Source: Pseudomonas taeanensis MS-3 (GTDB taxonomy: Bacteria; Pseudomonadota; Gammaproteobacteria; Pseudomonadales; Pseudomonadaceae). From it: a DNA stretch of 64,000 bases. Shown piece by piece: positions 1,900 through 60,480 of this stretch (position 1 is the first letter of the stretch; each line of letters begins with the position of its first letter). The stretch lies in the NCBI RefSeq assembly GCF_000498575.2, contig NZ_AWSQ01000001.1:608859-672858 (forward strand). Direction: 5' to 3'. The position numbers and the translations under genes were made by a program. The notes beneath the pieces are model-generated. The model saw only the letters and a program-made list of their open reading frames with translations. It did not search any database and was not told the DNA's origin.

Positions 1900-3408
1900 A
1901 TGAAGCGTCCCAATATTCTGTTCATCATGGCCGACCAGATGGCCGCGCCGCTCCTGCCCATCCATGACCCGGCCTCGCCGATCAAGATGCCCAACCTGGT
2001 GCGCCTGGCCGAGTCTGGCGTGGTATTCGATTCCGCTTACTGCAACAGCCCGCTCTGCGCGCCGTCGCGCTTCACTCTGGTCAGCGGCCAGCTGCCGAGC
2101 AAGATCGGCGCCTACGACAACGCCGCCGACTTCCCCGGCGACGTGCCGACCTATGCCCACTACCTGCGCAACCTCGGTTACCACACGGCGCTGTCCGGCA
2201 AGATGCATTTCTGCGGCCCGGACCAGCTGCATGGCTACGAGGAGCGCCTGACCAGCGACATCTACCCGGCCGACTACGGCTGGGCGGTGAACTGGGACGC
2301 GCCCGAAGAGCGTCTGAGCTGGTACCACAACATGTCCTCGGTATTGCAGGCCGGTCCCACCGTGCGCACCAACCAGCTGGATTTCGATGAGGAGGTGGTG
2401 TTCAAGGCCCAACAGTACCTCTACAACCATGTCCGCGAGAACGCCGAGCAGCCGTTCTGCCTGACCGTGTCGATGACTCACCCGCACGACCCCTACTGCA
2501 TTCCGGAAGAGTTCTGGAGCCTGTACCGCGACGAGGACATTCCGCTGCCAGGGGTCAACATCGACCAGCAGGACCTCGACCCGCACTCGCAGCGCATCCT
2601 CAAGGTCATCGACCTGTGGGGTAAGGATCTGCCCAAGGAAAAAATCAGGGACGCGCGGCGCGCCTATTTCGGTGCCTGCAGCTACATCGACTCGAATATC
2701 GGCAAGCTGCTGAAGACCTTGGGTGACTGTGGCCTGGCCGAGGACACCATCATCATCTTCTCCGGCGACCACGGTGACATGCTTGGCGAACGCGGCCTCT
2801 GGTACAAGATGCACTGGTTCGAGATGGCCGCACGTGTGCCCTTCGTGGTCCATGCGCCGAGTAAGTTCGCCGCACATCGGGTCAGTCAGTCGATGTCCAC
2901 TGCCGATCTGCTGCCGACCCTGGTGGAGTTGGCCGGCGGTGCCGTAGACCCGAGCTTGCCGCTCGATGGCCGTTCCCTGCTGCCGCACCTGCAAGGCAAC
3001 GGTGGGCACGATGAAGTGCTCGGGGAGTACATGGGTGAAGGCACCAACAGCCCGCTGATGATGATCCGCCGCGGTGACTGGAAGTTCATCTACTCCGAAG
3101 TCGACCCGTTGCTGTTGTTCAACGTGGCCAATGACCCGAAAGAGCTGGAGAACCTGGCTCAGTCGCCCGATCACCAGGGTCTGCTCACCGAGTTCCTCGA
3201 GGACGCGCGCCAGCGCTGGGACATCCCGGCGATCCATCAGGCCACCCTCGCCAGCCAGCGCCGTCGACGCTTCGTCGCCGAGTCACTGACCAAGGGCAAG
3301 CTGAAGAGCTGGGATCATCAACCCATGGTCGATGCCAGCCAGCAGTACATGCGCAACCACATCGACCTGGATGATCTGGAGCGCCGTGCACGCTTCCCGC
3401 AGCCCTGA
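1900..3408 (+). CDS. betC: Choline-sulfatase
   Basis: Hydrolyses choline-O-sulfate to choline and sulfate, supplying both sulfur and a precursor of glycine betaine; cytoplasmic, as no signal peptide is present. The 502 aa match the family length. The sulfatase signature C-A-P-S-R is at residues 53-57, where Cys53 would be converted to formylglycine. Metal-binding residues are in MADQ near residues 10-13 and in the FSGDHGDMLGE stretch near 286-296. The C-terminal extension fits the choline sulfatase subgroup. The start ATG has a GGAAT site upstream. It is followed after 65 bp by a choline-binding protein gene and lies divergent from its presumed LysR regulator. The sulfate released could relate to the SulP transporter further downstream, but that link is only positional. 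Confidence 0.95.
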   Translation: MKRPNILFIMADQMAAPLLPIHDPASPIKMPNLVRLAESGVVFDSAYCNSPLCAPSRFTLVSGQLPSKIGAYDNAADFPGDVPTYAHYLRNLGYHTALSGKMHFCGPDQLHGYEERLTSDIYPADYGWAVNWDAPEERLSWYHNMSSVLQAGPTVRTNQLDFDEEVVFKAQQYLYNHVRENAEQPFCLTVSMTHPHDPYCIPEEFWSLYRDEDIPLPGVNIDQQDLDPHSQRILKVIDLWGKDLPKEKIRDARRAYFGACSYIDSNIGKLLKTLGDCGLAEDTIIIFSGDHGDMLGERGLWYKMHWFEMAARVPFVVHAPSKFAAHRVSQSMSTADLLPTLVELAGGAVDPSLPLDGRSLLPHLQGNGGHDEVLGEYMGEGTNSPLMMIRRGDWKFIYSEVDPLLLFNVANDPKELENLAQSPDHQGLLTEFLEDARQRWDIPAIHQATLASQRRRRFVAESLTKGKLKSWDHQPMVDASQQYMRNHIDLDDLERRARFPQP

Positions 3409-28654: not shown

Positions 28655-28680
28655 AAAAAACCCGCCGAAGCGGGTTTTTT
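28655..28680. terminator. Orphan bidirectional terminator
   Basis: AAAAAACCCGC / GCGGGTTTTTT with a 4-base loop (CGAA) is a textbook intrinsic terminator on both strands, but there is no annotated gene within several hundred bases that it would serve. Confidence 0.8.
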
Positions 28681-29003
28681 CCTGACCATCCCGACATCCT
28701 GTCGGTAGCTATCCTAGCCATGGCCAATCATCCTTGATTCCGAGCGCGTCCTGCGCCTCAGAGGATTTATCAAGATTAATGATCTGCCTCCAAGTTCAAT
28801 AGCAGCAAACGCCGTCAAGCCGTGTAAGCCATTCGCTATACCTATCAGCAGACAACTGAGACGACCCTACCAGCTTGAGGACTTTCGACAGCCCGATTGG
28901 CTTCGTTAGCTATCAATGCCGCCAGCGAGCGGAGTCCCCCAACGCAGGCTCGGCAGACAATCACAGTTCAACCCGAGTGGCCTTCATTACATTGCTCGCC
29001 GCG

Positions 29004-29151: not shown

Positions 29152-29500
29152 GGACAACAATAATAAAATCAGCAAAGAAATCGACTCGATTCTGACATAA
29201 CAAAAACAACAAGCCAGATGAGTAGCAAACAGATTTTTTTGGAGAGGGTGTGCTTTTCCAGGAGTTAACCTGGCGACCAGAGGAAAACAATAAAACTACC
29301 TTGAGGTAGCTGAACTGGTTGAATCATCAAGTGACTATGGCACCACCAGCATCCAAAAAAATACGTTTACCTTTGAACCCACCGGGCTCAGAAAATCTTG
29401 TTCGACGATAGCGGTCACTAAAAACAACAACAGACTGTTTAACAACAAAAACAAAGCATGCAGCAATTATTTGAGGGGAGCTACGGCTCCCCTCAGTGCT
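29152..29500 (+). ncRNA. CrcZ/CrcY-type small RNA (Hfq-Crc antagonist)
   Basis: RNA of about 340-350 nt with no gene-like frame, starting 11-12 bases after a sigma-54 promoter and ending at a GC-rich hairpin with a UACG loop (29473-29494). It carries at least five A-rich CA motifs of the AAnAAnAA kind that bind Hfq and Crc: 29154-29168, 29199-29212, 29284-29295, 29419-29432 and 29441-29456. In known family members (CrcZ in P. aeruginosa; CrcY, CrcX in other species) such an RNA, induced by CbrA/CbrB on poor carbon sources, titrates Hfq-Crc away from its targets and relieves catabolite repression. All of this fits here, including the CbrB-type palindrome. I cannot tell which family member it is; the neighbourhood is not cbrB, so CrcZ proper is less likely. 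Ends are approximate. Confidence 0.87.
29472..29495 (+). terminator. 3' hairpin of the Crc-type small RNA
   Basis: A nine-base stem GAGGGGAGC / GCTCCCCTC closes a TACG loop. It is followed by AGTGCTTTCT rather than a clean T-run, so the exact 3' end is uncertain. Confidence 0.65.
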
Positions 29501-29646
29501 TTCTGCTGTCCCTTCTCCCTATGAGCTTAGGGAATGCTCCGCGCAACATTGATGAGCGCCGAGTCACTTAGAATGCCTCCCAGAACCCCATTTCACAGCC
29601 CGATCAACGGTTTTCAAACCCGTTGATTAACTGGTGATCTAGAAAG
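29501..29646. other. Non-coding stretch between the small RNA and the gyrB terminator
   Basis: No reading frame, promoter or repeat that I can support. It separates the rightward small RNA from the leftward gyrB transcript. Confidence 0.5.
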
Positions 29647-55063: not shown

Positions 55064-56926
55064 ATGTGTGGCATCGTGGGCGCCGTCGCCGAACGTAATA
55101 TCACCGCCGTGCTGGTAGAAGGCCTCAAGCGCCTGGAATACCGTGGTTATGACAGTGCCGGCGTGGCGCTGTTGAATGACCAGGGTCAGCTCGAGCGCCG
55201 TCGTCGCGTGGGCAAGGTCAGTGAGCTGCAAGCGGCGCTGAACGCTGAGCCCTTGGCCGGTCGTCTGGGCATCGCCCACACCCGCTGGGCCACCCATGGC
55301 GCGCCGAGCGAGCGCAACGCCCACCCGCATTTCTCAGGTAGAGAGCCCGGCAGTGAGCTGGCGGTGGTGCATAACGGCATCATCGAAAACCACGATGCCC
55401 TGCGCGAGCAACTCAAGGGTCTGGGTTACGCCTTCAGTTCGGATACTGACACCGAAGTCATCGTTCACCTGCTGGATCACAAGCTAAAAACTCAGCCTGA
55501 TCTGACCGCGGCGCTCAAGGAAGCAGTCAAGGAGCTGCACGGTGCCTATGGTCTGGCGGTGATCAGTGCCAAGCAGCCGGATCGTTTGCTCGCCGCGCGC
55601 AGCGGCAGCCCGCTGGTGATTGGCCTGGGCCTGGGCGAAAACTTCCTGGCCTCCGACCAGTTGGCCTTGCGCCAGGTGACTGACCGCTTCATGTACCTGG
55701 AAGAAGGCGATATCGCCGAGATTTGCCGCGAGAGCGTGCAGATCTGGGACGTCTCCGGTGAGCCGGTGCAACGTGAAAGCGTGCAGTACCACGAAGGCGC
55801 GGAAGCCGCCGACAAGGGCGAGTTCCGCCACTTCATGCTCAAGGAAATCTTCGAGCAACCCAAGGTGGTGCAGCGCACCCTGGAGGGCCGCCTGGGCTCC
55901 GATCACGTGTTGGTGCAGGCCTTCGGCCCCCAGGCCGCCGAGCTGTTCGCCAAGGTCAAGAACGTGCAGATCGTCGCCTGTGGCACCAGCTACCACGCCG
56001 GCATGGTCGCCCGTTACTGGCTGGAAGGTCTGGCGGGTATTCCCTGCCAGATCGAGGTGGCCAGCGAGTTCCGCTACCGCAAGGTGGTGGTGCAGCCGGA
56101 CACCCTGTTCGTCAGCATTTCCCAATCCGGCGAAACCGCCGATACCCTGGCCGCACTGCGCAATGCCAAGGCGCTGAGCCCTGAGCAGGGCGGTTACCTG
56201 GCCAGCCTGTCGATCTGCAACGTCGGCATCAGCTCACTGGTGCGCGAGTCCGACCTGTGTCTGCTGACCCAGGCCGGCCCGGAAATTGGCGTGGCCTCGA
56301 CCAAGGCCTTCACCACTCAGTTAGTCGGTTTGATGCTGCTGACCCTGTCCCTCGGTCAGGTTCGCGGCACACTGGACAAGCGGCTGGAAGCCGAACTGGT
56401 GGATGAGCTGCGCCGCCTGCCGACCCGCCTCGACGAAGCCCTGGCGATGGATACGGTGGTGGAGAAGGTGTCCGAACTGTTCGCGGAAAAGCACCATGCC
56501 CTGTTCCTCGGGCGCGGCGAGCAATACCCGGTGGCCATGGAAGGTGCGCTCAAGCTCAAGGAAATTTCCTATATCCACGCCGAAGCCTACCCGGCCGGCG
56601 AGCTCAAGCACGGGCCGCTGGCCCTGGTCGACAGCGACATGCCGGTGGTCACGGTGGCGCCTAACAACGAACTGCTGGAGAAGCTCAAATCCAACCTGCA
56701 GGAAGTGCGCGCCCGTGGCGGCGAGTTGATCGTGTTCGCCGACCAGCAGGCCGGCATGAGCAACGGCGAGGGCACCCACGTGGTCAACATGCCGCACATT
56801 CACGACGCCCTGGCGCCGATCCTCTACACCATCCCGCTGCAGCTGTTGTCCTACTACGTCGCCGTGCTCAAGGGCACCGACGTCGATCAGCCGCGCAATC
56901 TGGCCAAGAGCGTGACGGTCGAATAA
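55064..56926 (+). CDS. glmS: Glutamine-fructose-6-phosphate aminotransferase
   Basis: Makes glucosamine-6-phosphate from fructose-6-phosphate and glutamine, the first step to UDP-GlcNAc. 620 aa, close to the 610 usual. N-terminal nucleophile Cys2 in [12 protein letters not shown], glutaminase loop [18 protein letters not shown], then two SIS isomerase domains ([24 protein letters not shown] and [20 protein letters not shown]) and the C-terminal NLAKSVTVE tail. Cotranscribed with glmR. No glmS ribozyme is expected or seen. Confidence 0.97.
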
Positions 56927-56939
56927 GGCCGTAACGGTT

Positions 56940-56964
56940 AAGCCCAGCATCCTGCTGGGCTTTT
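56940..56964 (+). terminator. Terminator of glmR-glmS
   Basis: AAGCCCAGCA / TGCTGGGCTT stem with a 3-base loop and four T residues, 13 bp after the glmS stop. Confidence 0.85.
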
Positions 56965-57177
56965 ACCTGGTGCGAGGGTTATCCACAGGGAGCGGACGAG
57001 TATGGCTCGCCGCAGCCGCGCCAGTCGTGAACAGGATCCGCAACTAGCAGATTTCTGGGGTGGCTGAACCTGCTCCAGACTCGGCCATACAACCCTGATC
57101 CAGGCAGCTCCGATTATCTACAGCGTTGCCCGGCGGTGATGGATCCGTCGAGTGTGTTGAACATTTTTATTGGCGCT
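56965..57177. other. Non-coding stretch between glmS and the bufferin operon
   Basis: No supported gene. A perfect isolated DnaA box is at 56979-56987. A 21-codon frame (57001-57066, starting MARRSRASREQD) is too short to judge and has no ribosome site, and may be a gene remnant. Confidence 0.4.
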
Positions 57178-57239
57178 TGTAACGCCTGAGAATGACCAGA
57201 CTCTAGTGGTATGCCTGCATCGAACAAGCCTTGTTCGAT
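57178..57239 (+). promoter_or_regulatory. Upstream control region of the bufferin operon
   Basis: Contains TGTAACG (57178-57184), reminiscent of ECF-sigma -35 elements, and a perfect inverted repeat with ATCGAACAAG arms separated by a single C (57219-57239), 30 bp before the first ATG. The palindrome could be an operator or a leader hairpin. Promoter assignment is tentative. Confidence 0.4.
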
Positions 57240-57269
57240 TGGCAACCGAAACCACTCGAGGATCACCGC

Positions 57270-57521
57270 ATGTCTATCACTACTACCGCTACTGGTGCTG
57301 CCATCGCTTTCGCCGCGGCTACGCTGTTCGCCAGCATGTCCACTGTTGTCGTGGCCGAAGAAGCACAGGTGCATTGCTACGGCGTGAATGGCTGCAAAGG
57401 CCAGAACGACTGCAAGACCGCCGCCAACAGCTGTAAGGGTCAAGGTTCCTGCAAAGGTCAGGGCTTCAAGAACATGACCCTGGCAGAGTGCAACAATGCC
57501 AAGGGTACCGTCGGCGAGTAA
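57270..57521 (+). CDS. bufA: Bufferin-type RiPP precursor (cysteine-rich, BufA2-like)
   Basis: Precursor of a ribosomally made, post-translationally modified copper-binding peptide. 83 aa from the ATG at 57270 (GAGGAT ribosome site). Signal peptide about residues 1-29 (ending VVVA), then a compact Lys/Gly-rich core with six cysteines at 36, 42, 48, 55, 61 and 74 and three CKGQ units. In known bufferins, MNIO enzymes convert core cysteines to copper-binding heterocycles (thiooxazole) and the product sequesters periplasmic copper. The cysteine layout resembles the BufA2 class rather than the four-Cys DUF2282 class, but this is by eye. The modifying genes follow directly. Confidence 0.85.
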   Translation: MSITTTATGAAIAFAAATLFASMSTVVVAEEAQVHCYGVNGCKGQNDCKTAANSCKGQGSCKGQGFKNMTLAECNNAKGTVGE

Positions 57522-57593
57522 GGGCACACGGAGTGGCCGGCTGCGGCCACTCCAGCCCATTGCCGCCTTTTCAGCTTTTCAGGGAGTTGTCGC

Positions 57594-58439
57594 ATGTCCA
57601 CTGAGTCAGCATGTCTGGGTTATGGCCTGGGCCTGCGCAGCACCTACTACCAGGAAATTCTCGAGCAGCGGCCGGATGTCGACTGGTTCGAGATTCTCTC
57701 GGAAAACTATCTGGTTGATGGCGGCAAGGCGCTCTACTACCTGGATGCCATCGGCGAACACTATCCGTTGGTGATGCACGGCGTATCGCTGTCCATCGGC
57801 GGCCCGCATGAGTTGGACCGGGACTACTTGCAACGCCTCAAACATCTGGCTGCGCGGGTTAAACCGGCGTGGATTTCCGATCATCTGTGTTGGAGCCGCG
57901 GCAACGCGCACCAACTGCACGACCTGTTGCCGCTGCCCTACACCGAAGAAAGCCTGCAGCACGTCGCTGCGCGCGTGCGCCAGGTGCAGGAGGTTCTCGA
58001 GCGCCCCCTGGTGCTGGAGAATGTCTCCAGTTACCTGCGCAGCGCCGATGATCAGTTCAGCGAATGGCAGTTTCTCGCCGCGCTCAGCGAACTGAGTGGT
58101 TGCGAGCTGTTGCTCGACGTCAATAACGTCTACGTCAGCAGCCGTAATCACGCCTTCGACCCCTGGGATTTCATCAGCGGCTTGCCCGCGCAGCGCATTC
58201 GCCAGCTGCACCTGGCCGGGCACAGCGATTACGGCAGTTACCTGATAGACACCCATGATCAGCCGATCAGCGATCCGGTCTGGCAACTGTATCAGCGCAC
58301 CCTGCAGCACCTGGGTCCGGTGGCGACCCTGTTGGAGCGGGACGACCACTATCCGCCGCTGTCCGAGCTGCTCGCTGAACTGGATAAAGCCCGCGTCTTC
58401 GCGGCGACAGCCTTGCCTGCGGAGCCGTTATGCAACTGA
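57594..58439 (+). CDS. bufB: MNIO-family (DUF692) RiPP-modifying iron oxidase
   Basis: Multinuclear non-heme iron-dependent oxidase that modifies cysteines of the bufA peptide. 281 aa with a TIM-barrel fold expected. Probable iron ligands appear in the conserved stretches: Glu33 in WFEILSENY, His62 in MHGVSLSIGG, Asp96/His97 in SDHLCW, Glu142/Asn143 in LENVSSY, Asp175/Asn178 in LLDVNNVYV, His210 and His221 in HLAGHSDYGSYLIDTH. 72 bp after bufA and overlapping bufC by 10 bp. Confidence 0.92.
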   Translation: MSTESACLGYGLGLRSTYYQEILEQRPDVDWFEILSENYLVDGGKALYYLDAIGEHYPLVMHGVSLSIGGPHELDRDYLQRLKHLAARVKPAWISDHLCWSRGNAHQLHDLLPLPYTEESLQHVAARVRQVQEVLERPLVLENVSSYLRSADDQFSEWQFLAALSELSGCELLLDVNNVYVSSRNHAFDPWDFISGLPAQRIRQLHLAGHSDYGSYLIDTHDQPISDPVWQLYQRTLQHLGPVATLLERDDHYPPLSELLAELDKARVFAATALPAEPLCN

Positions 58440-59215
58440 ATGACTGGCAGCGCGAGATCGAGGCCTACCTGCTCGGCCAGGAGCCGACGCCCAACCCGGC
58501 GTTGCGAGCTAGCCTGCTGAGTAGCCCGGCGCTGAGCGCAGAAGACGGCCTGGCGATTTACCACAATGCCTACCGCGCGCGGCTTTTGGAGGCCGTACGG
58601 GATGACTATCATGCCGTGCATGGCTGGCTCGGGGATGAGGAGTTCGACGCGCTGGCTGGCGCCTATATCGAGGCCCATCCCTCGCAGCACTTCAGTCTGC
58701 GCTGGCTGGGAGCGCGCCTTGCAGAGTTTATCGAAGGCTATCTGGTGGCCGAACAGAGCGCGCCGCTCAGTGAGCTGGCGCGGCTGGAGTGGGCTTTTAC
58801 CCTGGCCTTCGATGCGCCCGAGGGCGTTCCCCTGAGTCTGCAACAGATGGCCAGCCTGCCGGCCGAGGACTGGCCGACCCTGCAGGTGCGCCTGCTACCC
58901 AGCGTGCAGTGGCAAAGCTGTCGCTATAACAGCGTGGCGATCTGGCGCGCGCTCAAGGACGACACGGCGTTTCCCGGCAGCGTGCTGCTGGAGCAGACGC
59001 AGGTTTGTCTGATCTGGCGGCAGGGTTTGATCAGCCGCTATCGCAGCCTGTCCCATGCCGAAGCGACGGCGCTGCAGGGTATGGCGGTGGACGGCTGGAG
59101 CTTCGCCGATCTCTGCGCGCAGTTGAGCGAACTCGGCGATAACGCCCCTCTGCAGGCCGCCACCTGGCTGCGCCAATGGCTGAGCGATGGTCTGCTGCAG
59201 CGCTATGGCATATAG
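58430..59215 (+). CDS. bufC: DUF2063-type partner of the MNIO enzyme
   Basis: 261 aa. The N-terminal domain (about 1-100) has the DUF2063 features LNDWQREIEAYLLG, LAIYHNAYRARLLEAVRDDY and GDEEFDALAGAYIEAHPS; the C-terminal domain is less conserved. In described systems this protein holds the precursor peptide for the oxidase. Overlap with bufB (10 bp) indicates coupled translation. Last gene of the three-gene operon; the next gene, cfa, has its own upstream region. Confidence 0.88.
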   Translation: MQLNDWQREIEAYLLGQEPTPNPALRASLLSSPALSAEDGLAIYHNAYRARLLEAVRDDYHAVHGWLGDEEFDALAGAYIEAHPSQHFSLRWLGARLAEFIEGYLVAEQSAPLSELARLEWAFTLAFDAPEGVPLSLQQMASLPAEDWPTLQVRLLPSVQWQSCRYNSVAIWRALKDDTAFPGSVLLEQTQVCLIWRQGLISRYRSLSHAEATALQGMAVDGWSFADLCAQLSELGDNAPLQAATWLRQWLSDGLLQRYGI

Positions 59216-59295
59216 CCACTGGTTATGGAACCGAAAAGCTGACAAATGAGTCATCTGAACTACCTTTTCAATTATTTTTAAAGGTGGAGGTTCCT

Positions 59296-60480
59296 ATGCT
59301 CGCGTATTTGCCGCCAAACCTGCGTGACCTTCAGCTGCCCTTGCGTTTGCGCCTATGGGACGGCACTCAGCTCGACCTCGGCCCTCAGCCACGGGTCACC
59401 CTGGTGGTCAAAGATCCGAGTCTGGTGGCGCAACTGGCCCATCCCAGTCTGGATGCATTGGGCGGCGCCTATGTCGAAGGGCGGGTGGAGCTGGAAGGAC
59501 CGATGAGCGAGGTGATTCGCATCGGCGATGCCCTCAGTCAGGCGCTTGAGGATGAGTCTGACACCTGCCAGATATCGCGCACGCCTCATGACAAGGACAG
59601 CGATGCGGCGGCGATCAGCTACCACTATGACCTGTCGAACGACTTCTACGCGCTGTGGCTGGACCCGCAGATGGTCTACTCCTGCGCTTATTTCGAGACC
59701 GGCACGGAAGACCTTGAGCAGGCGCAACAGGCGAAAATGCGCCACCTGTGCCGCAAGCTGCGCTTGCAACCGGGGGAACGGCTGCTGGATGTCGGTTGCG
59801 GCTGGGGCGGCCTGGCGCGTTACGCCGCGCGCGAGTTCGGCGCCGAGGTGTTCGGCATCACCCTCAGTCGCGCGCAGTTGAAACTGGCCCGTCAGCGGGC
59901 CAAGGATGAGGGCCTTGCTCGGCAGGTGCGACTGGAGCTGCTGGACTACCGTGACCTGCCGCAGGACGGCCGTTTCGACAAGGTGGTCAGCGTCGGCATG
60001 TTCGAGCACGTCGGGCATGCCAACCTGCCGCTTTACTGCCAGCGCCTGTTCGGCGCGGTAAAGGCCGGCGGCCTGGTGATGAACCATGGCATCACCGCCA
60101 AGTTCACCGATGGCCGCCCGGTGGGTCGCGGCGGTGGCGAGTTTATCGGGCGTTACGTGTTCCCCGAAGGCGAGTTACCGCATCTGGCGACCATGACCGC
60201 GCACATCAGCGAAGCCGGTCTGGAGGTGGTCGATGTGGAAAACCTGCGGCTGCACTATGCCCGGACCCTGGAGCACTGGAGTGCACGACTGGAAGCACGC
60301 CTGGACCAGGCCGCACAGTTGGTGCCGGAGCAAGCCCTGCGCATCTGGCGGTTGTACCTGGCCGGTTGTGCGTACGGCTTTGCCCGTGGCTGGATGAGCC
60401 TGCATCAGATCCTCGCGATCAAACCCTATGAGGATGGCAGCCACAACCTGCCCTGGACCCGAGCCGACCTGTATCGCTGA
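59296..60480 (+). CDS. cfa: Cyclopropane-fatty-acyl-phospholipid synthase
   Basis: SAM-dependent enzyme that cyclopropanates unsaturated chains of membrane phospholipids, typically on entry into stationary phase. 394 aa from the ATG at 59296, which follows a strong GGTGGAGG site; the longer frame runs back into bufC and is rejected. YHYDLSNDFYALWLDPQMVYSCAYF and the SAM loop LLDVGCGWGGLARYAA (about 170-185) identify it; it aligns along its length with the P. putida CfaB sequence as I remember it. Confidence 0.95.
   Translation: MLAYLPPNLRDLQLPLRLRLWDGTQLDLGPQPRVTLVVKDPSLVAQLAHPSLDALGGAYVEGRVELEGPMSEVIRIGDALSQALEDESDTCQISRTPHDKDSDAAAISYHYDLSNDFYALWLDPQMVYSCAYFETGTEDLEQAQQAKMRHLCRKLRLQPGERLLDVGCGWGGLARYAAREFGAEVFGITLSRAQLKLARQRAKDEGLARQVRLELLDYRDLPQDGRFDKVVSVGMFEHVGHANLPLYCQRLFGAVKAGGLVMNHGITAKFTDGRPVGRGGGEFIGRYVFPEGELPHLATMTAHISEAGLEVVDVENLRLHYARTLEHWSARLEARLDQAAQLVPEQALRIWRLYLAGCAYGFARGWMSLHQILAIKPYEDGSHNLPWTRADLYR

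Follow-up and report, generated by a model that had tools for sequence, protein, structure and literature searches.

Operon layout

The stretch of DNA analysed here, called the window below, comprises 64,000 nucleotides of the genome of Pseudomonas taeanensis MS-3 (contig NZ_AWSQ01000001.1, positions 608,859 to 672,858, forward strand). It contains three consecutive genes, bufA2, bufB and bufC, in which a first-pass annotation made from the sequence letters had recognised an operon for a bufferin, a ribosomally synthesised and post-translationally modified peptide (RiPP), together with an oxidase of the MNIO (DUF692) family. By its sequence, the operon is an ordinary member of the known BufA2 class of bufferins (Buf2, Cys-Lys), preceded by a predicted promoter of the extracytoplasmic function (ECF) type. 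The operon was thus correctly spotted, and its novelty was overstated. The features discussed are the following:

57178..57207, + strand: predicted promoter, ECF-type by sequence (-35 TGTAAC at 57178-57183, 17-nt spacer, -10 CTCTAGT at 57201-57207)
57212..57244, + strand: hairpin predicted for the start of the bufA2 mRNA (folding, compensatory changes)
57270..57521, + strand: bufA2, six-Cys bufferin precursor, 83 aa (ATG at 57270, stop codon ending at 57521; predicted signal peptide 1-29; NF050166)
57594..58439, + strand: bufB, MNIO (DUF692) maturase, 281 aa (NF050167, PF05114)
58430..59215, + strand: bufC, partner protein with DUF2063 and an RRE-like (RiPP recognition element) domain, PME type 1, 261 aa (PF09836, AlphaFold model)
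59296..60480, + strand: cfaB, cyclopropane fatty acid synthase (NF040703, 755.5 bits, cut-off 650)

Position 57178, at which the stretch described earlier begins, is not a gene start; the TGTAAC box of the predicted promoter starts there. The genes had been described as overlapping, which is true for bufB and bufC (10 nt, 58430-58439) and not for bufA2 and bufB, which lie 72 nt apart. The gene order A-B-C recurs in every BufA2 locus compared, except one (L091) whose contig ends inside bufB.

Precursor, maturase and partner protein

The precursor scores 96.3 bits against the NCBIfam model NF050166 (Cu_RiPP_BufA2; cut-off 60) and 15.9 bits against the Pfam family DUF2282, below the cut-off of 22.4. 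The family search that had been suggested for telling BufA1 from BufA2 therefore clearly gives BufA2, in line with the proposed distinction from the four-Cys DUF2282 type. The six cysteines reported earlier are found at positions 36, 42, 48, 55, 61 and 74 of the 83-aa peptide, and the three CKGQ units at Cys42, Cys55 and Cys61; Cys48 sits in CKTA. The N-terminus has, by eye, the appearance of a signal peptide, with a hydrophobic stretch that ends in VVVA/EE.

Relatives were collected by scanning GTDB genomes with patterns derived from 16 aligned precursors, and the best 80 of at least 542 encoded relatives were kept; the closest among the matches listed is that of Pseudomonas sp. SJZ079 (95% identity). 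In the 81 aligned precursors (the window and 80 loci), none of the six Cys varies, and Lys43, Lys49, Lys56 and Lys62, which follow Cys42, Cys48, Cys55 and Cys61, are kept in 80, 79, 81 and 81 of them, respectively. One retrieval pattern required Cys55-Lys-Cys61-Lys and the other Cys36-Cys42-Lys, either match being sufficient. The columns of Lys43, 56 and 62 and of Cys36, 42, 55 and 61 are therefore partly fixed by construction, and among the six Cys only the conservation of Cys48 and Cys74 is fully independent of retrieval. L112 and G011, for example, stem from one and the same record, and because some loci are duplicated in this way, pooled counts are not all independent. The residue after Cys36 is Tyr, Trp, Phe or Met, and that after Cys74 is variable. 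Two-unit precursors, each unit with six Cys, also occur (L024; G091:C1:6270549-6270977).

BufB reaches 378.7 bits with NF050167 (NCBIfam, cut-off 310) and 374.5 bits with PF05114 (Pfam), so that both the precursor and the maturase pass their equivalog models. It stays below the NCBIfam cut-offs for HvfB (277.6 versus 360), ApyH, ChrH and MbnB. The MNIO ligand residues had been described as intact, and all motifs checked are indeed present: MHG 61-63, DH 96-97, E142, LDVNN 174-178, HLAGH 206-210, IDTHD 218-222 and ERDD 248-251. The best solved relative by sequence is 3bww (E 1.4e-51). Via the alignment to this structure, and with a one-residue offset between the HvfB and 3bww numberings inferred in the mapping, BufB N177, D219 and H221 correspond to HvfB N175, D242 and H244, all three of which HvfB requires to form 5-thiooxazoles (PMC13419390). 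A link between the substrate class and the residue that follows the catalytic Asp has been reported, with Phe in Lys-Cys MNIOs and Asp in Cys-Lys MNIOs (BufB2-Asp251; PMC13097082). Asp251 of BufB, in ERDD, occupies the site of FonB-Phe250 and thus agrees with the Cys-Lys captophorins. Among 120 loci, this position is Asp in 97 of the 98 that encode BufA2 only, the remaining one, apparently L091, being unreadable; loci with both precursors have Asp (5) or Glu (1), and the 16 BufA1-only loci have Asn in 14 cases and Asp in two (L057, L070).

The expected DUF2063 partner is present as well, BufC scoring 77.4 bits with PF09836 (cut-off 27.2). By sequence, BufC matches nothing in the PDB at E values up to 1. 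The AlphaFold model of it (mean pLDDT 90.9, 19 sequences) matches the two-domain protein 3dee (NGO1945) with E 6.5e-7 and a TM-score of 0.76 by target length over 222 columns, and also the TglHI chains 8hci/8hi7; the RRE proteins of lasso-peptide systems, 6jx3 and 5v1v, are matched only at E about 1. With its DUF2063 domain and the match to 3dee, BufC is a two-domain partner of PME type 1.

Class assignment and related systems

The earlier description of the six-Cys, CKGQ-repeat core implied a departure from known bufferins. This view is rejected, since both the BufA2 and the BufB equivalog models are passed, and it does not agree with published descriptions: 90% of Buf2 precursors contain six conserved Cys and the others twelve, in clusters described as free of sigma and anti-sigma genes (PMC12452194), and one of the three precursor classes in print is that with "multiple Cys-Lys motifs" (PMC13097082). 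A six-Cys Cys-Lys core therefore describes the class.

The operon shares with Buf2 (NF050166; PMC12452194) the six conserved Cys, the A-B-C order and the DUF2063 partner, along with a putative signal peptide judged by eye, and the neighbours identified include no sigma or anti-sigma gene. It differs in no class-defining feature; there is no DoxX gene beside it, and cfaB follows instead. With the Cys-Lys group of captophorins (PMC13097082), the operon has in common the multiple Cys-Lys motifs, the PME1 partner and the Asp at the MNIO selectivity site; the 5-thiooxazole, whose structure has been solved in EGKCG members and in Buf1, is a prediction for the peptide of the window. Buf1 systems (BufA1, DUF2282) resemble the operon in combining an MNIO and a DUF2063 protein with a Sec-exported Cys peptide, but have four Cys, DoxX in the operon and, in 14 of 16 loci, Asn for Asp251; with six Cys and its DUF2282 score the window precursor does not belong to them. 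Oxazolin (HvfABC) has the same architecture of enzyme and partner but KCG repeats in place of CKG, and the window proteins score below the HvfB and HvfC cut-offs. Methanobactin biosynthesis (MbnABC) was considered and rejected, BufB scoring 60.8 bits against the MbnB equivalog TIGR04159 (cut-off 325). The "Pep2" cluster of Pseudomonas fluorescens (PMC8719888) likewise consists of a short peptide, DUF692 and DUF2063 genes and then a methyltransferase gene, possibly cfaB, but its peptide is called DUF2282 there.

The P. taeanensis genome encodes a second operon, of the BufA1 type (G000:C9, about 81300-82500; L002, L055), with a four-Cys precursor (PF10048, DUF2282, 83.6 bits) and MNIO, DUF2063-like and DoxX (60.4 bits) genes; a glutaredoxin gene lies just upstream.

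A predicted promoter shared by bufferin operons

The 170 nt upstream of bufA2 were aligned in 72 sequences, namely the window, 67 loci titled Pseudomonas, two metagenome-assembled genomes (MAGs) of Pseudomonadaceae and two of Gammaproteobacteria. Common to them are CTGTAACGC and CTCTAGT, separated by 17 nt if counted from TGTAAC. Of the 72 sequences, 71 have TGTAAC-N17-CTCTA, the exception (L147) having CTCAA. A search of both strands of the loci L073-L153 gave 70 matches, one per promoter-bearing locus and all on the bufA2 strand. In 149 genomes of the genus, TGTAAC-N17-CTCTAGT occurs at 77 sites in 55 genomes, compared with 18 sites for a reversed-pattern control, and at least 73 of the 77 lie 384-457 nt upstream of an MNIO gene on the same strand. 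Of the remaining four sites, that of G173 is 62 nt ahead of bufA2, that of G131 is not among the loci inspected, and two (G007, G124; L173, L230, L249) are followed by no bufferin but by a secreted Met-rich repeat peptide. These peptides look by eye like MxKDx proteins; that of L173 has no NCBIfam or Pfam match. The related form TGTAACG-N16-CTCTA was found at 35 sites in 25 of 59 genomes, and of 29 loci inspected, 25 precede a bufA gene, one a Met-rich peptide and three nothing recognisable. BufA1 operons can carry the promoter too: the exact TGTAAC-N17-CTCTA form occurs in 10 of 16 chosen loci, and two more have CTCAA for CTCTA.

By these counts, the predicted promoter is nearly exclusive to bufferin operons in the genus. 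Several observations speak against reading the motif as a promoter of these operons. TGTAAC-N17-CTCTA occurs in none of eight bufA2 regions from other groups, a ninth being too short, and the exact form is missing from 10 of the 24 loci of a second BufA2 set, which takes in other BufA2 clades, two genomes of other families and a locus with an 18-nt spacer (L033). The bufA1 operon of P. taeanensis itself also lacks the CTCTA promoter. This genome has only two TGTAAC-N17-CTCTA sites, that of bufA2 and one about 37 nt before arsS, an arsenosugar radical SAM gene (TIGR04167, 450.6 bits; L154, G000:C1:482102), which is a candidate second target or a chance match. No sigma-70 promoter-like site was found at 56900-59700, and literature searches, with most subscription journals outside their coverage, returned no description of the CTCTAGT form among the papers listed.

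Which sigma factor may read the promoter

ECF16 sigma factors read (T)GTAAC-N16/17-CGAA, and DUF692 operons are among their targets in Caulobacter (PMC3511200) and Sinorhizobium (PMC6180224), and an MxKDx peptide is a member of the ECF16 hypochlorite regulon in Brucella (PMC8315932). The promoters described for these regulators (SigF of Caulobacter, RpoE7 of Sinorhizobium, BcrS of Brucella) resemble that of the window in the -35 box, the spacing and the DUF692 and MxKDx targets, but their -10 is CGAA and not CTCTAGT, and the P. taeanensis genome has no NrsF: a search with PF06532 for this anti-sigma factor gave no match in it, so that a SigF-type regulator was rejected.

Elsewhere in the genus, NrsF is encoded in 25 of 149 genomes (24 above the cut-off; 27 matches), which are taken as the same draw as the 149 of the promoter scan. 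Only one of them (G114, a sub-threshold match with stops) also has the CTCTAGT motif, versus 9.2 expected, a deficit with a hypergeometric P of 5e-5 that is not corrected for relatedness. The ten NrsF loci inspected out of the 27 matches (L250-L259) all carry TGTAAC-N15-17-CGAA, and none has TGTAAC-N17-CTCTA. TGTAAC-CGAA with NrsF and the CTCTAGT promoter thus appear to be two alternative wirings within one genus.

We regard it as an even chance that in 55 of the 149 Pseudomonas genomes sampled, roughly a third, the BufA1 and BufA2 operons belong to one small dedicated regulon, together with a Met-rich MxKDx-like peptide in a few species. An unlinked and hitherto undescribed ECF16-like sigma factor would read TGTAAC-N17-CTCTAGT and replace the SigF-NrsF system (TGTAAC-N17-CGAA) of other Pseudomonas genomes, with the -35 and the kinds of target kept, the -10 exchanged and NrsF absent, and a conserved hairpin may stand at the start of the transcript. 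Two points weigh against the overall account of the operon given below, in which an ECF-type sigma factor would read this promoter. The -10 CTCTAGT departs from the SigF/ECF16 consensus, which places the promoter outside ECF16 by its -35/-10 pair, and neither a promoter scan nor similarity to the NrsF-linked sigma revealed a cognate factor among the ECF genes of P. taeanensis. Seven of its ECF-type proteins share only 24-32% identity with the NrsF-linked sigma of other Pseudomonas; the match of L206 covers only 23 residues, and L211 gave no match. An autoregulated ECF gene was rejected: in 20 Sigma70_r4 loci of this genome (each about 3 kb long, with many that do not represent ECF genes), the best promoter score was 7.3, near a locus end, versus at least 22.5 for true sites.

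A probable hairpin in the bufA2 leader

A hairpin is probable at the start of the bufA2 mRNA, as judged from folding and covariation of the leader sequences. The 39 nt at 57209-57247 fold with -14.6 kcal/mol (z -3.75; none of 200 shuffles as good), and the longer leader 57209-57272 gives z -1.90 (9 of 200 as good). The first arm has a perfect 5-nt Watson-Crick partner in 31 of 68 distinct leaders, compared with a mean of 15 and a maximum of 25 in 2000 exchanges of arms between sequences and with 3.6 when the 3' part is shuffled. Among 20 relatives of one subtype (15 distinct), 4 of 12 pairs have changed on both sides, a value reached in 3 of 500 shuffles, and a hairpin model (R1) built from these relatives gave 14 matches, each of them at the leader position, when run on 56 sources (501 kb). 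Other measures argue against the structure: if at least four of five pairs suffice, the own arm scores 56 versus a mean of 55.1 for exchanged arms; with G-U pairs allowed it scores 39 versus a mean of 30.5 and a maximum of 39; the mean folding z over the 68 leaders is only -0.49 (mononucleotide shuffles); and R1 does not reach E<=1 on the window. Rfam has nothing at 56900-59400.

Genomic setting

Upstream of the operon lies glmS (TIGR01135, 848.8 bits), and cfaB is followed by a LysE-type and then an AraC-type gene. cfaB is found within 400 nt 3' of bufC in 55 of 69 assessable loci, and this conserved neighbour suggests a possible functional link between the copper peptide and membrane cyclopropanation. 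The position directly after glmS is peculiar to the window, as tblastn found glmS in none of 120 compared loci (flanks up to about 6 kb). A relative (L073) shares 95% protein identity across A, B and C, and homology to the nearest relative begins at 56973, about 47 nt after glmS (56926-56973); a rearrangement therefore ended there. For the gene upstream of the L073 operon, the P. taeanensis genome has only a 43% homologue, elsewhere, and no mechanism of rearrangement was found. As for a Tn7-type insertion beside glmS, the exact pattern TGT-N29-ACA, the sole one searched, gave 4 matches versus a chance mean of 10.4. Elsewhere in the window, Rfam identifies the small RNAs CrcZ (29154-29526) and rsmX (28655-28766).

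Proposed function and alternatives

We are highly confident in the overall account of a BufA2-class (Buf2, Cys-Lys) bufferin operon that leads from its promoter to a periplasmic copper buffer. Gene content, family membership, conserved residues and promoter conservation are observed in the loci compared here, and the thiooxazole chemistry, copper binding and Sec export are taken over from relatives. Transcription of bufA2BC from TGTAAC-N17-CTCTAGT would be driven by a sigma factor of the ECF type that reacts to copper or to oxidative stress in the envelope. The RRE-like domain of BufC would then hold the precursor for BufB, whose iron cluster would oxidise Cys42, Cys48, Cys55 and Cys61 to 5-thiooxazoles (-4 H each), with Asp251 reading the Lys after each target. 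The Sec pathway would export the modified peptide, with cleavage near VVVA/EE, and in the periplasm Cys36 and Cys74 would form a disulphide while the thiooxazoles bind excess copper. The mature peptide with four thiooxazoles and one disulphide has a predicted monoisotopic mass of 5548.29 Da, versus 5566.43 Da if unmodified.

Some findings fit this account less well. The residue after the second modifiable Cys is Met in three and Ala in one of 15 relatives from a whole-genome hidden Markov model search, and Cys-Lys is therefore not an absolute rule. BufC scores 21.6 bits against the HvfC equivalog (cut-off 142), a model that may describe another subgroup. Besides, the neighbours identified (DeoR-like, glmS, cfaB, LysE-type and AraC-like genes) include neither DoxX nor a copper-resistance gene.

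Four thiooxazoles at the Cys-Lys sites and a Cys36-Cys74 disulphide are the most likely state of the peptide, the sites, the disulphide and the metal being predicted from the published chemistry and from Buf1, where the disulphide links the two outermost Cys and modification is confined to those between them (PMC12452194). The same operon and chemistry could also act on all six Cys and leave no disulphide (5542.24 Da), as is reported for EGKCG peptides in which no Cys is left unmodified, with six modified Cys each in one Microbulbifer MmrA (PMC12538549) and in oxazolin (PMC13419390), and the invariance of all six Cys in the aligned precursors would suit this reading. However, it is at odds with the Buf1 precedent and with the position of Lys, which follows Cys42, 48, 55 and 61 in 79-81 of 81 precursors, in agreement with Asp251, whereas other residues stand after Cys36 and variable ones after Cys74; we therefore consider it improbable. 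Somewhat less improbable, though still unlikely, is a peptide that protects mainly against another stress, such as gold, hypochlorite and other oxidants, or cadmium and chromate, with copper binding being incidental. In Legionella, related operons respond to gold as well as copper (PMC5413113), and in Caulobacter they respond to cadmium as well as chromate (PMC3511200). P. aeruginosa expresses a DUF692 cluster with hypochlorite (PMC9023270), and the CTCTAGT promoter also precedes peptides resembling the MxKDx protein of the Brucella hypochlorite regulon (PMC8315932). In Caulobacter, on the other hand, Buf2 acts like Buf1 in copper according to preliminary data (PMC12452194), and the sigF mutant is copper-sensitive (PMC8224329). 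The latter report describes the DUF692 operons CCNA_03001-02999 and 03363-03366 as copper-induced under SigF; by our own reading of it, the former would be the Caulobacter Buf2, although its precursor is listed as DUF2282 in PMC3511200.

A decayed or silent operon that yields no working product, its frames having survived by chance or through recent ancestry, could be suspected from the glmS neighbour, unique among the 120 loci compared, and from the rearrangement that ended at 56973. Yet the frames are open, the checked catalytic motifs, the six Cys and the promoter sequence are intact, and identity to L073 is 95%, which makes such decay highly implausible.

The P. taeanensis operon thus adds little chemistry beyond what is already proposed for bufferins. 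Its peptide nevertheless yields a clean prediction, four thiooxazoles and one disulphide (-18.14 Da), for a class whose modification sites are not given in the cited parts of the published papers. The less expected part of the locus is its predicted promoter, which would offer a precise and cheap route to the controller of copper-buffer peptides in Pseudomonas.

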